Below are positions 35,061 through 41,779 of a stretch of 41,820 bases of DNA, piece by piece. The position numbers and the translations under genes are program-made. Position 1 is the first letter of the stretch; each line of letters begins with the position of its first letter. Under the pieces are notes generated by a model. That model was not told the DNA's origin, did no database searches, and worked only from the letters and a program-made list of their open reading frames with translations. This stretch comes from an uncultured cyanobacterium. GTDB taxonomy: Bacteria; Cyanobacteriota; Cyanobacteriia; PCC-6307; Cyanobiaceae. The stretch spans positions 1 to 41,820 of the forward strand of contig CAIZQU010000146.1 of NCBI GenBank assembly GCA_903935205.1, in the 5' to 3' direction.

Positions 35061-35813
35061 TCAGCTCAGGGAGCTCCACCAGCGCTCCACCACCGCGGCG
35101 CTGCCGTACCACTGGGGTCCGAAAGCACCGCCGTGGGCCACGCCCTCCAGCACCACGGGCTCGGCGCCCTCCAGCAGCGCCGAGCCCACCGGCACCAGGC
35201 CATCGCCCCGGTCGTTGGCATCACCCGTGCTGTTGCGGTAGGCCGTGGGCGCCAGGCGGCGGGCCGTGGCGCTGGCCTGGCCGGCGGCAGCCTCCAGCTC
35301 GATCACGCCGGCCACCGCCGCATAGCGCACCGGATGCTGGCGATCGTGGCCGAAGAAGGCGCCGGGAAGCTCCCGGGCCACCCGGCTGCGCATCGCCGTG
35401 GCCTTGAGAGCGGTGTGGGGGCTGCCCAGGGTGATCAGGGTGTCGGCGAAGCGGCGGCCGCCGTAGCGGCGGCCCTCGAACGGCCCGTCGGCCAGAAACA
35501 GCCGCAGCAGGATGCCGCCGGAGCTGTGGCCGATCAGGGTGATCCGACCGCTGGCGGAGGTGGCGGCCAGCTCGGCGGCGGCGCTGGCCACCCGATCCAG
35601 CAGCCGCGCCCAGCCCAGGGGCAGCACGGTGAGCAGCCACTCCAACCGCGACACCGGCAGCAGCACCACCCGCTGGCCACTGAGCTGCTCCAGGCGCTCC
35701 ACCATCGGGGCATAGGCCTCGGCACCGATCAGGAAGCCGCCCAGCACCAGGATCGGCTGGGTCGGCAGCGGCCGGGATGGTGTGGCGGCGGTGGTGGAAT
35801 CCAGCGGGGGCAC
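35061..35813 (-). CDS. Lipase/esterase-like alpha/beta hydrolase
   Basis: A 250-residue alpha/beta hydrolase. Strand 3 and the oxyanion region read ILVLGGFLIGAEAY; the nucleophile elbow LIGHSSGG gives Ser97. The acid and base are likely the Asp in GDGLVPVGSALL and the His in GVAHGGAFG near the C-terminus. It resembles the PGAP1/triacylglycerol-lipase-like cyanobacterial hydrolases; substrate unknown. No signal peptide. The start is GTG 35813. It lies 27 nt downstream of the next gene on the same strand, so co-transcription is likely. Confidence 0.85.
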   Translation of the reverse strand: MPPLDSTTAATPSRPLPTQPILVLGGFLIGAEAYAPMVERLEQLSGQRVVLLPVSRLEWLLTVLPLGWARLLDRVASAAAELAATSASGRITLIGHSSGGILLRLFLADGPFEGRRYGGRRFADTLITLGSPHTALKATAMRSRVARELPGAFFGHDRQHPVRYAAVAGVIELEAAAGQASATARRLAPTAYRNSTGDANDRGDGLVPVGSALLEGAEPVVLEGVAHGGAFGPQWYGSAAVVERWWSSLS

Positions 35814-35840
35814 GCTCGGGCCGTGGCGATCGCCATGCTC

Positions 35841-36332
35841 TCAGGCCACTGGCTGGCGCCACCAGGCCCAGGCCTCGCGGTTGATCACCAATCCGATCAG
35901 CAGCAGCACCGCCATCAACGCCACCTGGTCGCCACGGGAATCGGGCACGAGGATGTCGGCGATCAGGTGGGGGATGTTGGTGAGCGTGTAGACCACACTG
36001 ATCCAGAAGTGCAGCCGGCGCCAGCCGCGCCAGCCGCCGCGCCGCAGGGGCTGGCTGGCGGCCCAGCTGATCCGCAGCAGCGAGGCAAGGGGGATCAGGA
36101 AGTAGATCAGCATCGCCCAGAACAGCCAGGGCAGCTGTTCCGGCGGCACCTGGCTCTCGATCTCCGCCGAGAAGCCATGGAACAGGGGCATCAGGCCCAG
36201 ATCCACATGGAAGAGCATCGCCAGCAGGTAGGCGAGCCAGAGGCTGCGCAGGCGCAGGGGGCGATCGATCGGGGCAGCAGGCAGTGCCGGGGTCTGGGGT
36301 GGGAAGCCGCGGGTTCCAGTGGGGGAGGGCAT
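35841..36332 (-). CDS. Small multi-helix membrane protein of unknown function
   Basis: A 163-residue protein from ATG 36332 with four predicted membrane helices (about 30-50, 66-87, 103-124 and 135-155). Distinct blocks are WLAYLLAMLFHVDLGLMPLFHG and WVFW-like PWLFWAMLIYFLIPLAS. Conserved His residues (FHVDLG and NIPHLIADI) sit inside helices, which is unusual for an inert membrane anchor and could bind a cofactor; this is speculation. Similar proteins occur in cyanobacteria without a known role. It precedes the lipase-like gene. Confidence 0.65.
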   Translation of the reverse strand: MPSPTGTRGFPPQTPALPAAPIDRPLRLRSLWLAYLLAMLFHVDLGLMPLFHGFSAEIESQVPPEQLPWLFWAMLIYFLIPLASLLRISWAASQPLRRGGWRGWRRLHFWISVVYTLTNIPHLIADILVPDSRGDQVALMAVLLLIGLVINREAWAWWRQPVA

Positions 36333-36712: not shown

Positions 36713-37303
36713 GTGATCGCCCGCTCCAGCGCCCCCCAATCCCCCGCTGAATCCGCCAGCGCTGCCGTGGAGGCTGCGGCCGGCGCCGACGATCTGCCCA
36801 GCGGCGCCGCGCTGCTCGCCCTGGAGCAGGCGGCACGACGCGGCGGCACGGGGTTGGAGGCGGAGCAGCTGGAGGGGCTGTGGATGCTGGAGCGGATCTG
36901 GCCCCGGGGGCAGACCCGCAGCGCTGCCCTGGCCGGTGGTCTGCTGCGCAGCCTGGGGGCCTCGCTGCGGATGGAGCGGCGGCTGGGGGTGAAGGGGACT
37001 GGAGCGGAAGTCGCCCCAGCGCCCCTGTGGCTGACCAACAGCGTGCGGCTGGGTTGGTTGGAGCTGCGCTTTCAGGGACCGGGCTGGTTGCGGGGCCGGC
37101 GACCATTGCTGTGGTTCCAGTTCGAGCGGCTGGAGATCCGGGCCGGCGAGCGGACGCTGCTGCAGCGGACGCTGCCGGCGCCGGAACCGCGGCGCCAGCC
37201 CTTTTTCGCCCTGATTGCCACCGGAGCCGATCGCCGCTGGCTGGCTGCCCGCGGCCGTTCCGGTGGCCTGGCGGTGTGGCGCCTCAGCCCACCGACACGT
37301 TGA
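36713..37303 (+). CDS. Conserved cyanobacterial protein, PAP/fibrillin-like
   Basis: A 196-residue protein from GTG 36713. After an Ala-rich start, a helical part (LEAEQLEGLWMLERIWPRG) is followed by a beta-rich domain with LTNSVRLGWLELRFQGPGWLRGRRPLLWFQFERLEI and the ending FFALIATGADRRWLAARGRSGGLAVWRL. The closing ARGR-GGLAVW block and the beta pattern recall cyanobacterial proteins related to plastid lipid-associated proteins (fibrillins), but the match is by eye only. It converges with the linker gene and the two coding ends overlap by 20 nt. Confidence 0.6.
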   Translation: MIARSSAPQSPAESASAAVEAAAGADDLPSGAALLALEQAARRGGTGLEAEQLEGLWMLERIWPRGQTRSAALAGGLLRSLGASLRMERRLGVKGTGAEVAPAPLWLTNSVRLGWLELRFQGPGWLRGRRPLLWFQFERLEIRAGERTLLQRTLPAPEPRRQPFFALIATGADRRWLAARGRSGGLAVWRLSPPTR

Positions 37304-38485: not shown

Positions 38486-39044
38486 ACTGGGACCGGAACT
38501 GGTGGCCGGAACCATCCAGGATCTGAATGTATGGGCAGTTGGCAGGTGTTACATCGGCCTGGGCGGATTCCTTGCAAAACGTTGTGCAACCTTCTCCGTT
38601 CCCGGCGGCGGCGGAGCGAAGGGCCCTCAGGGCTGCTGCCAGCGGGCGGCCCGACGGGGGTGCCGCCCGCTGAAAAAACCAGTTCTGGGCCGGATCGAGC
38701 CTGCTCGCGAACGTCAGCAGGCCTGTCGGATCCTTGGCGGCTGCGGCGGAACCGCTGCCAACCCTGCGGTGCCAGGGCGTAGTCAGCAGCGCCCTGACGG
38801 CTGAAGACCCCCAGACCTGCCGTTGGTCCCTCCCGCCCGAGGCCCGGCCTGGGAGCCTGCTGCGCGTAGGTCGACAGGCCAGGCCCTGAACAATGACGGA
38901 CCCGAAGCGGCGCATTTCGCAGCCTCATCCTGAGACAAAGGGCATCCAGGACATCTCAGCACCGTCATCGCAAGATCTGCTGCCGTGCCATCCATCTGCC
39001 CTTTGGCGCGGCGCCGCACTCGCAATGCGGATGAGATCCAGGGG

Positions 39045-39095
39045 AGATCCATGGGAGATCCTGTTCCGTTGTGTCGCGGGATCTCCCCATGGATT
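39045..39095 (-). repeat. Long imperfect inverted repeat after the GTPase gene
   Basis: AGATCCATGGGAGATCC (39045-39061) and its near-complement (39079-39095) form a stem of about 16 bp with one bulge and a 17-nt loop, 32 nt past the stop of the GTPase gene. There is no T-run. It may act as an mRNA end or processing site. Confidence 0.6.
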
Positions 39096-39126
39096 TGCAG
39101 CCAATGCGGCTACGCGCAACAGGCTC

Positions 39127-40278
39127 CTAAACCCGCTCGGGCAGCTCGCTGCCGTGCACGATGTCGTTGAGGATTTCAGCGGCCAGGCTCTCGGCCTCGT
39201 CGACCAGCTGTTCGCCGAGCATGAAGGTGGACTGCCAGCCGATGCCGGCGGCGATCAGGGGGCCGGCCATGGGGATCCAGCGGGTCGACTGGCGGCTCAC
39301 CTCCCGGCTGGCGAGGCGCTTGAGCAACCCCACCAATCCTTCACGGGCCAGATAGCGGGTGCCGAACTGGGCGACCTTGGCGAGCAGGGAGGGCAGGGCC
39401 CTGGGGCCGAGCAGGCGTTTGATGTAGTCGAACTGGCTGCTGGTCAGCCCGTAGATCGAGGCGATCTCCTCACCCAGCTTGAGCAGCAACGACACATCAG
39501 CGGCAAGATCGAGACCGGGCACGGGATTGAGGCTGCCGTTGGCGGCGGCCAGGCCGGCATAGGGGGGGATGCGCTCCTGGGCCACCTTGCGCTTGCGCTG
39601 CAGGGCATCCTGGCCGTAGGCGGCCATGTCGGCCACGAAGCGCGATTGCTTCAGGCCCGCCAATGCGGAGCCGATGTCCACGAGCAGGTCCTGCAGGTCG
39701 TGCAGCGAGGGCTGGCGGGCGGAGGTGAGGTAGACGCGCTCCGGCGGATCGGGGAGCAGTTCCTCACGGATATCCTGCTCGATGATGCGCCGCGTTTCGG
39801 CTTCATCGTGCCCGTGGTCATGGCGGCCGTCTTCGATGGCCCGATCGATCATGTTGCGCACCACAAAGCAGGGTTTGCCGAGGGTGCGCAGCTGCTGAAA
39901 CAGGAAGACGTCGTTTTCGTAGAAGCGCTGGGCGGTGACCAGCAGAAAGCAGTCATAGCTGGCCAGATTGAGGCGTTCCACATAGGTTTCCTTCGGCCAG
40001 CGGCGGGTGCCGCAGCCGGGCAGATCGACGAAGGTGATGCCGCGGTGGCTGAGTTCGAGTGGATCGTTGGTGGTTTCCACCACCCCCACCTGGGCGATAC
40101 GTTCACCGGCGATGGCATTGATCAGCGACGACTTGCCGCTACCCGATGGTCCGATCAAGCCGCAGCGCACCTGGGTCTTCTCGAATTCCTCGATCTTCTC
40201 GCGGCAGCGGGAGGCGAAGTCGCGGATCAGGGTGGTCTGGTCGTCGGCCAAGGGGCTCATCAGCAGTGATGCAGGCAT
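39127..40278 (-). CDS. IRG-like (interferon-inducible/immunity-related GTPase family) GTPase
   Basis: A 383-residue GTPase. The P-loop GPSGSGKSS lies at 43-51 with Lys49, and G3 is DLPGCGT at 85-91. The IRG-typical run after G3 is present: YVERLNLASYDCFLLVTAQRF (98-119), ENDVFLFQQL and FVVRNMIDRAIED (138-150), the latter standing where TKxD is usual. VYLTSARQPSLHDLQDL follows, the counterpart of the IRG 'SN' region. Residues 230-360 form a helical domain with membrane-seeking stretches (ADVSLLLKLGEEIASIYGL; WIPMAGPLIAAGIGW). IRG proteins in animals act at pathogen vacuole membranes; bacterial and cyanobacterial relatives are mostly uncharacterised. ATG 40278 or 40260 start it. An alternative label would be a dynamin-like or Era-like GTPase, but the order of motifs favours IRG. 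Confidence 0.78.
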   Translation of the reverse strand: MPASLLMSPLADDQTTLIRDFASRCREKIEEFEKTQVRCGLIGPSGSGKSSLINAIAGERIAQVGVVETTNDPLELSHRGITFVDLPGCGTRRWPKETYVERLNLASYDCFLLVTAQRFYENDVFLFQQLRTLGKPCFVVRNMIDRAIEDGRHDHGHDEAETRRIIEQDIREELLPDPPERVYLTSARQPSLHDLQDLLVDIGSALAGLKQSRFVADMAAYGQDALQRKRKVAQERIPPYAGLAAANGSLNPVPGLDLAADVSLLLKLGEEIASIYGLTSSQFDYIKRLLGPRALPSLLAKVAQFGTRYLAREGLVGLLKRLASREVSRQSTRWIPMAGPLIAAGIGWQSTFMLGEQLVDEAESLAAEILNDIVHGSELPERV

Positions 40279-40400
40279 CCTCAGCCCGGATCGGCCGCGG
40301 CGCCGCCGGCTGAGGCTGACGGTTTACACGCTGGTGGCGACGGTTGGTCCCCCTTGGCTGGATCCAGATCCTGGATTTCCCGCTCTGAAGTCGGTCGCCG

Positions 40401-40640
40401 ATGCTCTGGAGCGGCTTGGGCTGGCTGGAGGTGCGGCCTGGGCTGAATACTCCCGAGGCCGCACCGCTGATGCGCCCGTTGGCATCGCTGGAGCCGATGC
40501 AGCGCTGCCGGCCGGCCGGCTACGCCGAGATCTGCAGCCGCGGGGCCGGCAGCCAGCAGAACGCCCAGATCATCGCTGCCAGCGCCGCTGGTGTGTTGGC
40601 ATGGGTTCACGACCCTGGCGACTCTGACCAGCGACACTGA
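40401..40640 (+). CDS. Possible small hypothetical protein
   Basis: A 79-codon frame from ATG 40401 with strongly C/G-ending codons (as in neighbouring genes) and a plausible soluble sequence: GLGWLEVRPGLNTPEAAPLMR, MQRCRPAGYAEICSRGAG and QNAQIIAASAAGVLAWVHD. I do not recognise a family. Its stop codon lies in the first unit of the 13-bp tandem repeat. It diverges from the IRG-like GTPase (122 nt between starts). Codon bias supports it; absence of a clear ribosome site and homology argue for caution. Confidence 0.45.
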   Translation: MLWSGLGWLEVRPGLNTPEAAPLMRPLASLEPMQRCRPAGYAEICSRGAGSQQNAQIIAASAAGVLAWVHDPGDSDQRH

Positions 40641-40720
40641 TTGGTGACACTGATTGGTGACACTGATTGGTGACACTGATTGGTGATTATGGTTGGTGGT
40701 TCTGATTGGCGATACTGACA
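40633..40720. repeat. Tandem repeat with 13-bp period upstream of the DUF2887 gene
   Basis: Four perfect GACACTGATTGGT units (40633-40684) are followed by degenerate units GATTATGGTTGGT, GGTTCTGATTGGC and a partial GATACTGACA. A diverged unit (GACTCTGACCAGC) precedes them at 40620-40632. The decay at both edges is the pattern of an array that expanded in its centre. Confidence 0.93.
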
Positions 40721-40825
40721 AGAGATCCAAGCCATGGCATCGCCAGACCGGCAGCCATGCAGAGACTGAGGCCCCGCCCTGATGGTGAAACGTCCAGCAA
40801 TGGCGGCCTGAACCCACAGCCACAG

Positions 40826-41779
40826 ATGACCGCCAGCGACAAGCTCTTCTACTGGCTGTTCCAGAGCCAGCCCGATCGCATCCTGCAGCTGCTGCCTGAT
40901 CTGGCGGCTGCTGCGGCTCAGGTTGGTGGCGGCTATCGGTTTGTGGCGCCGGTGTTCAAGGCGCGGGAATACCGGCCTGATGGGGTGTTTCTGGCGGTGG
41001 AGCAGGACCGCGAGCTGCCGGCGCTGGTGCTGGAGGCGCAGATGCGCTCGGATCCACAGTTTCTGCTGCGGCTCTATGCCGAATCAGGCCGGCTGCTGCA
41101 GCAACAGGATCGACAAGGTTGCCCGATCCGCCAGTGGCAGGTGGTGGTGATCTGCCCGCTGCGCACCCTGGCCTTTGGCGATCCGGAGCCGGTGGCTGAG
41201 TTTCTGGAGCGAAGGGTGCGCTGGTTGGAGCTGCTGCCCGCCCTGGCTGATCCCAATGCCCCGCCGCTGCTGCGCACCCTGGCGCTGCTGCTGGAGAAGG
41301 AGGAGCGCCTGCCGGCTACCACTGCGCAGATCCGAGAAGCGGTGGCTGGCAGTGAGCTGGAATCCCAGATCGCCGATGCCACCGCCGCTATCCTGTTGGC
41401 ACGGTTCACGACTCGCCCTATCCCGGAGATCTGCGCCATGGCCGGCATCACCCTTGAGGATTTCAGCCAGAGCGTGGCCTACAGGGAGATCTTTGGGCTT
41501 GGTGAACAGCGGGGCTTGGAGCAGGGTCTGGAGAAGGGTCTGGAGCAGGGTCTGGAGCAGGGGCGCGTGCAGGGGCTTGAGAAGGGCCTGGAGCAAGGAC
41601 TCAAAACCGGCGAACTCGAGATCACCTTGCGCCAGTTACGGCGCCGCTGCGGTGCTCTCACCGCCACCCAGGAGGCCCTGATCCGCGCTCTGCCGTTGCC
41701 GCGGCTGGAGATGCTGGCGGAGGCACTGCTCGATTTTCAGGGTTCGGATGATCTCGACACTTGGTTGTCAGGGAATTGA
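40826..41779 (+). CDS. DUF2887/Rpn-type PD-(D/E)XK protein with DUF4351-like C-terminus
   Basis: A 317-residue protein of the cyanobacterial DUF2887 group (annotated as Rpn-type recombination-promoting nuclease or putative transposase). The start MTASDKLFYWLFQSQPDRI is typical. The nuclease-like core shows RPDGVFL (Asp52) and LPALVLEAQM (Glu70, Gln72), a D...ExQ form of the PD-(D/E)XK site. Residues 230-261 are a tandem GLEQ/GLEK repeat, followed by a DUF4351-like end (LRQLRRRCGALTATQEALIRALPLPRLEMLAEALLDF). These proteins are mobile-element-associated and present in many copies in cyanobacteria. ATG 40826 is the family start; ATG 40757 or 40733 would add low-complexity residues. Confidence 0.87.
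   Translation: MTASDKLFYWLFQSQPDRILQLLPDLAAAAAQVGGGYRFVAPVFKAREYRPDGVFLAVEQDRELPALVLEAQMRSDPQFLLRLYAESGRLLQQQDRQGCPIRQWQVVVICPLRTLAFGDPEPVAEFLERRVRWLELLPALADPNAPPLLRTLALLLEKEERLPATTAQIREAVAGSELESQIADATAAILLARFTTRPIPEICAMAGITLEDFSQSVAYREIFGLGEQRGLEQGLEKGLEQGLEQGRVQGLEKGLEQGLKTGELEITLRQLRRRCGALTATQEALIRALPLPRLEMLAEALLDFQGSDDLDTWLSGN
41513..41608 (+). repeat. In-frame 12-nt repeat inside the DUF2887 gene
   Basis: Eight 12-nt units encode GLEQ, GLEK, GLEQ, GLEQ, GRVQ, GLEK, GLEQ and GLKT. The consensus is GGTCTGGAGCAG. Copy-number change keeps the frame. Confidence 0.92.

Follow-up and report, generated by a model that had tools for sequence, protein, structure and literature searches.

For several branches of innate immunity in animals, bacteria have counterparts that act against phages. 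The vertebrate IRG (p47) protein Irga6 (IIGP1) is reported to assemble on the parasite vacuole (PMC4774019), and the bacterial dynamin-like protein DynA is described as delaying lysis after phage infection (PMC8844932). IRG-like features in bacterial GTPases, most striking in the Cyanobacteria, were noted by Bekpen et al. in 2005, who saw no clear link by phylogeny beyond the G domain and asked for structural evidence (PMC1297648), for want of which the IRG likeness of the cyanobacterial GTPases was left open. The protein described here resembles those GTPases, with which it was compared by their description and not by accession, in being bacterial and having an IRG-like sequence.

The window, by which we mean the whole 41,820-nt stretch of DNA analysed, derives from an uncultured cyanobacterium and carries the gene and neighbouring features listed in Table 1. 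We report that the encoded GTPase has an IRG-type G domain, that its family is patchily distributed and under purifying selection, and that several of its relatives lie in defence and phage cargo loci. New here are how strong the link through the G domain is, that the C-terminus is DUF697-like, and that relatives occur in defence and phage settings; for the last we found no earlier report among the matches listed in the literature searched, which lay mostly outside subscription journals, and no paper on anti-phage activity of bacterial IRG-type GTPases was among the same matches.

Table 1. Features of the window in and around the IRG-type GTPase gene.
Feature	Coordinates	Strand	Remarks
IRG-type GTPase gene	39127..40278	-	383 aa, stop within coordinates; open reading frame, PF05049 at 107.4 bits, best PDB match a mouse IRG
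G1/P-loop GPSGSGKSS	40126..40152	-	
G3 DLPGCGT	40006..40026	-	
G4 RNMID	39844..39858	-	
C-terminal helical domain, residues 205-383	39130..39666	-	DUF697-like, under the Pfam cut-off; helical in the model
Weakly hydrophobic conserved hairpin AAANGSLNPVPGLD, residues 244-257	39508..39549	-	
Weakly hydrophobic conserved hairpin WIPMAGPLIAAGIG, residues 334-347	39238..39279	-	
79-aa frame, once proposed as partner	40401..40640	+	not supported as a gene
13-bp tandem repeat, intergenic	40616..40719		6 copies in register, each 64-85% similar to the reference
DUF2887 + DUF4351 gene, divergent neighbour	40706..41779	+	

The GTPase gene is real, although its true start may be at codon 7 or later because DNA similarity to relatives stops at 40253. 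The order of motifs given in the preliminary description (GPSGSGKSS, DLPGCGT, DCFLLVTAQRF, TSARQ, the last being G5) is borne out in the 383-aa reading frame. The G3 motif is of the DLPG-x-G type and lacks the catalytic Gln of Ras, the Cys of DLPGCGT sitting at what we take to be the position of Ras Gln61. The feature at this position is discussed for the IRGs in PMC1297648, where a G3 of this type is called "far from diagnostic" for them. The Lys of the G4 motif (N/T-K-x-D) is replaced by Met in all five of the intact genus members compared, whereas G4 is RNKFD in relatives from three other genomes (L003, L069, and L004); nucleotide specificity or affinity may be changed in the genus members. 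We note also a 458-aa open frame on the + strand (38893-40269), antisense to the GTPase gene, which we take to be a by-product of high G+C content.

The similarity of the window protein to IRG proteins is, by sequence, far beyond chance, and its nucleotide-binding half is nearest to the interferon-induced immunity GTPases of mice. Its top Pfam family is IIGP (PF05049; 107.4 bits against a cut-off of 24, E 1.2e-30, residues 20-268), followed by general GTPase families, and PF05049 is likewise the top family in all seven relatives scanned whole (L003, L004, L012, L013, L015, L016, and L069); passing the cut-off alone is a weak criterion, as a DUF697 GTPase (L011) also does so with 33.8 bits. The closest solved relatives are mouse IRG proteins (2e-21, residues 25-281), with FeoB next at 4.8e-6; mouse IRGs are also the best PDB matches for L004, L013, and L015. 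With the G domain alone the IRGs again come first in the PDB sequence search (3.1e-18, against 1.6e-6 for FeoB), and a profile built from seven family members scores 4.8e-37 for IRGs against 2.4e-14 for the class that follows. The margin is narrower for L015, a phage member (2.1e-15 against 4.3e-10). The window protein shares with the vertebrate IRGs the DLPG-x-G motif and the series P-x-x-TY-[VL]-E ... YD-x-F ... RF-x-x-ND, with a likeness that runs to about residue 280, and the printed alignment with Irga6 spans the G domain and the first helices beyond it. It differs from them in being bacterial, in the Met of G4, and in a helical domain that alone finds no IRG match. Irga6 has a myristoylation Gly2, a signal not common to all IRGs; the window protein begins MPASLLM without a Gly2, and the N-terminal signal of the Irga6 type is thus absent.

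These scores also bear on the idea that the likeness to IRGs is confined to the G motifs and that the protein is a P-loop GTPase associated with DNA or ribosomes, of the Era/EngB kind. The G domains of EngB, Era, Der, and FeoB do match, at lower score, and the narrower gap for L015 would agree with such an assignment; but the distance between the IRG and FeoB matches of the window protein, with or without the helical half, argues against it, as does the Pfam listing, whose 20 families include none that binds RNA, and we think it highly improbable. The 25 of 75 NCBIfam families listed are all below their own cut-offs. Since IRG structures rank higher both by sequence and in a Foldseek search with the full-length model, the G domain is of the IRG type and not of the Era/TrmE/YihA type.

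The helical half approaches DUF697 (PF05128) without reaching it, the whole protein scoring 22.7 bits (residues 221-285) and the C-terminus alone 24.5 against a cut-off of 27.7. For an AlphaFold2 model of the full-length protein made from a 7-row alignment (mean pLDDT 73.3, pTM 0.52), IRG chains fill the top 38 rows of the Foldseek listing, with E values from 6.4e-13 (1tq6) to 5.3e-9 and rmsd values of 17-21 Å, and IniA is next at 1.3e-6. In VIA-align 17 IRG entries lead (4lv5_B: Z 21.6, rmsd 16.9, 303 aligned) and are followed by mitofusins (6jfm_B: Z 17.2, rmsd 6.6, 283 aligned), with rmsd values of 15.6-17.4 for the IRGs against 5.8-6.9 for the mitofusins. The large rmsd of the IRG rows indicates that the model differs from them in how its two domains are arranged, and the full-length match hence leans on the G domain; the overall shape of the model is fitted more closely by the mitofusin rows than by the IRG rows. 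When the helical part is modelled alone (residues 196-383, mean pLDDT 69.8), no IRG is among the 50 fold matches listed against the PDB, the best Foldseek E being 0.19, and a sequence search with this part gives no IRG match. Likeness to the MxB stalk was considered and rejected, the best VIA row (Z 10.1, rmsd 4.8, 166 aligned) being within the range that helical bundles may reach by chance. Because the helical part alone matches no IRG and resembles DUF697 below the cut-off, we describe the protein as a G domain of the IRG type with a DUF697-like helical domain behind it. Its preliminary designation as an IRG-like GTPase holds for the G domain, by sequence, and may or may not extend to the helical half, which alone is without an IRG match by sequence or fold.

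DUF697 GTPases, two of which are encoded in the same genome (L007 and L008), likewise have a DUF697 or DUF697-like domain after the G domain, and differ in that the window domain remains under the DUF697 cut-off and its G domain is of the IRG type. The dynamin-like proteins (LeoA/LeoBC, IniA, BDLP, and DynA) and the mitofusins share with the window protein an architecture of GTPase and membrane-acting helical parts. However, IniA and BDLP lie far below the IRGs in Foldseek, and the match to LeoA (Eleos) is confined to residues 14-184 of the 383 in the window protein and to positions 34-212 of the 559 in the LeoA model; a long stalk like that of LeoA has no room in a protein of this length. No model in PADLOC-DB 2.0.0 matches the window protein over its full length, and eight match in part, in the P-loop or G domain. 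We also observed two short proteins (L014:2887-3429 and L055:4980-5468) that consist of a DUF697-like helical domain only, with no G domain; the first is in a record labelled as a Staphylococcus phage, yet its neighbouring genes, which we take to be ptsH and ptsI, look like those of a bacterial chromosome.

Two hydrophobic patches had been pointed out in the helical domain, and both are recognisable as hairpins in all 12 sequences compared; but they are weak, the best 19-residue Kyte-Doolittle mean being 1.05 in the window protein (1.13-1.68 in seven relatives), under the value of about 1.6 that is the usual mark for a transmembrane helix. This weak hydropathy makes peripheral membrane contact likelier than insertion.

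The family is rare and patchily distributed. Within the genus the gene is present in 6 of 42 genomes, counting the window's own and one carrier with the gene in two pieces; weaker matches there, at about 1e-11, cover the G domain only, and some of the 36 genomes lacking the gene are incomplete. A sample of 386 genomes from the cyanobacterial phylum, with the best five candidates per genome scored, yielded the window's own genome alone when queried with the protein at 1e-15, and PF05049 at 1e-8 found three in the same sample, these being the same gene and two G-domain-only matches, one with DUF697. Elsewhere the counts are 1 of 194 genomes in the phylum around L004 (the L004 genome itself), 2 of 63 in the order of L003 (the genomes of L003 and L069), and 2 of 72,556 plasmid records at 1e-10, with two full-length records in each search. 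Seven matches were obtained in viral contigs, of which L015 and L016 alone are relatives over most of the length. Reading extended to L018, L053 (which lies on the contig of L017), and L020, rejected as phage members because they hold other GTPase or ABC genes; L019 (the same as L054) and L021 make up the seven. With the window protein as sole query there was no match in the viral contigs. The GTPase is under purifying selection. Across five close pairs dN/dS is 0.06-0.10: the window gives 0.10 with each of its nearest relatives, L001 and L002, two other pairs give 0.08, and L003 gives 0.06 with L069. The window paired with L050 has a higher value, 0.37. In one cyanobacterial assembly the IRG-type gene is split into two frames (L005/L051:4438-5477), by either decay or assembly error.

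The Pfam-named neighbours of the gene within the genus are ordinary genes. It is flanked in the window by the DUF2887 gene and a phycobilisome linker, and has an arginase upstream in L001. In both L049 and L050 a Crp-type regulator lies nearby together with an acyltransferase, and L050 has also a fatty-acid desaturase and a phycobilisome linker; a DUF4079 protein and a DSHCT-type helicase are near the split gene of L051. None of the eight neighbour proteins scanned in the genus (the L051 helicase being left out) matches PADLOC at 1e-5. The flank is syntenic in the window, L001, and L002. A fixed hot spot in the genus was considered and rejected: of the stretches read from seven of the 36 genus genomes that lack the GTPase, all contain the flank at about 35085-36212 and five the piece near 37019-37282, which has other genes beside it where it occurs.

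Outside the genus seven loci could be read (L003, L004, L012, L013, L015, L016, and L069), and five of them have defence, phage, or integrative-element surroundings; these make up four separate settings because L015 and L016 share flanking tail genes, and the figure is a count and not a test against a background rate. In Deinococcus (L013) the GTPase gene lies inside a BREX locus, on the strand opposite to the BREX operon, with brxL and pglZ on one side and DarT-family, methylase, brxC, and brxB genes on the other. A 515-aa protein encoded before it has no Pfam or PADLOC match, and directly after it is a second GTPase of 234 aa (L013:9049-9753). On the short contig of L004 a 933-aa DpdE-like helicase (1.2e-172, nearly full length) is on one side of the GTPase and an AbiEi-like protein (1e-11) on the other. 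In L069 it shares a stretch with a tyrosine integrase, a primase/helicase-like protein, and an ApeA protein (ApeA_NTD1+HEPN at 3.3e-37; PADLOC candidate PDC-S58 at 3.7e-70). L015 and L016 are related phage contigs in which the gene is inverted between those for a tail assembly chaperone and a tail protein, and L015 has an antitoxin gene beyond the chaperone, about 0.8 kb from the GTPase. In the other two loci no defence gene is seen: on an Azospirillum plasmid (L012) the GTPase is surrounded by ABC transporters and phospholipid genes with none annotated for defence, and two neighbour proteins have no PADLOC match at 1e-5, and on the 3.6-kb contig of Nodosilinea (L003), which carries an LRAT-domain gene, the two proteins scanned gave no PADLOC match. 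The LRAT-domain protein near the L003 GTPase gene (L003:2096-2833) has in addition a sub-threshold PspA/IM30 match.

An all-against-all comparison of reading frames in 13 loci identifies the GTPase as the sole gene common to all lineages, so that no conserved partner is found family-wide, an outcome that the preliminary description had named as speaking against its interpretation. Such sharing as exists is local: L015 and L016 have tail and other phage genes in common; the ABC ATPases of L049, L050, and L012 are generic and 42% identical; and the second GTPase of L013 matches the family GTPases themselves. L003 and L069, whose GTPases are 87% identical, share an HTH gene (53% identity) and a gene of 83-84 aa (61%) at L003:1458-2070 and L069:7126-7752, and L003 may belong to an element like that of L069 because these two small genes are common to both. 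The pair could be a local partner or part of a shared element. The accessory defence role proposed at the outset thus draws support from the loci of relatives elsewhere but not from the neighbourhood in the window and its genus.

We consider the chances about even that the GTPase is a membrane-acting, self-assembling protein carried as defence or superinfection cargo. In favour are the IRG-type G domain, the defence and phage settings outside the genus, the patchy distribution, the purifying selection, and the DynA precedent. Against it stand the genus neighbours scanned and the loci of L012 and L003, which show no defence gene, the PADLOC models that match the protein only in part, the weak hydropathy, the helical domain that alone matches no IRG, the lower rmsd of the mitofusins, the dN/dS of 0.37 with L050, and the negative result for a family-wide partner. 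It would be soluble and membrane-peripheral, the DUF697-like helical domain with its two hairpins being attached to a G domain of the IRG type. GTP binding would be expected, from the family, to pair the G domains, and the paired protein could assemble on the inner membrane through the hairpins, in the way that Irga6 is reported to do on the parasite vacuole. Once assembled it might shore up the membrane and so delay lysis, as DynA does in Bacillus, or alternatively break the membrane and abort the infection. The carrier would be the host, or a resident prophage or element, for which the protein may serve as a stand-alone anti-phage or superinfection-exclusion factor, and in the genus of the window it would have settled as an accessory chromosomal gene.

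The neighbourhoods within the genus agree with another reading, that of a housekeeping membrane-stress GTPase which would help to maintain or remodel the plasma or thylakoid membranes, a task also ascribed to the dynamin-like proteins of cyanobacteria, with the defence neighbours elsewhere being incidental. Several genus neighbours are metabolic and partly lipid-related (the acyltransferase, the desaturase, and the phycobilisome linker), the flank is retained in three genomes, the gene is under purifying selection, and the DUF697 GTPases of the same genome have the same general architecture. A gene not found in 36 of 42 genus genomes, even if some are incomplete, is nonetheless unlike a housekeeping gene, and such a role would not account for relatives on two phage contigs and one integrative element; we regard it as somewhat unlikely. 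These same three mobile relatives could instead suggest an offensive or counter-defence protein of phages or elements that acts in host takeover and has been domesticated in the cyanobacteria. This seems quite improbable, given that in the BREX locus of L013 no phage gene is named in the 45 kb listed, that L004 places the GTPase between two defence-type genes on its short contig, and that both phages carry the gene inverted amid their tail genes, a position that one would expect of cargo expressed on its own. A role as defence or superinfection cargo in conflict with viruses is a testable candidate, for which L004, L013, L015, L069, and the window provide concrete genes.

Phylogenetic comparison places the window protein close to the animal IRGs, of which two sequences were included. 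In a 12-row tree without an outgroup, four distant bacterial rows split off with 100/100 support and leave the window clade with the animal proteins; with outgroups, the window clade and the animals group at 96/97 in one tree and 71/92 in another, L008, L010, and the second GTPase of L013 having been dropped from the second tree. Because of these splits the window clade is the nearest bacterial branch to the animal IRGs among those sampled, in trees with flagged long branches and a rooting that is not fixed; alternatives with all bacterial rows in one clade (AU p 0.277) or with the animals joined to the distant rows (AU p 0.252) are not rejected. A nesting of the animal proteins inside the bacterial family was considered and set aside, as the 100/100 split is unrooted, these other rootings are unrejected, and branches are long. 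A wider proposal, which we rate as unlikely, is that IRG immunity in animals has its origin in, or has its immune role in common with, an anti-phage GTPase family of bacteria that persists in cyanobacteria, in BREX and ApeA loci, and in prophages; the protein of the window would then be in the bacterial branch nearest the animal proteins. If the family does defend against phages, bacteria could serve for studying how IRG proteins arose and how they work.

The 79-aa frame had been put forward in the preliminary description as a possible partner of the GTPase, and the 122-nt spacing given for it is correct, but we find nothing to recommend it as a gene and reject its product as a partner. Pfam, NCBIfam, and PADLOC give no match for it up to an E of 1, and tblastn at 1e-3 gives none in seven distinct related loci (10 records, among which three pairs are the same contig); DNA similarity with relatives ends before it; and its coding-like GC3 pattern is unspecific, being common to 6 of the 101 reading frames of 60-110 aa in the window, itself included. 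The 13-bp repeat and the DUF2887 gene noted in the same region are both present as described, the latter scoring 91.8 bits in Pfam against a cut-off of 24.1. The genome of the window has two DUF2887 matches including this one, which has only a weak PADLOC match (0.036), and its protein contains a run of EQGLEKGLEQG repeats that is probably the cause of its FliH matches.
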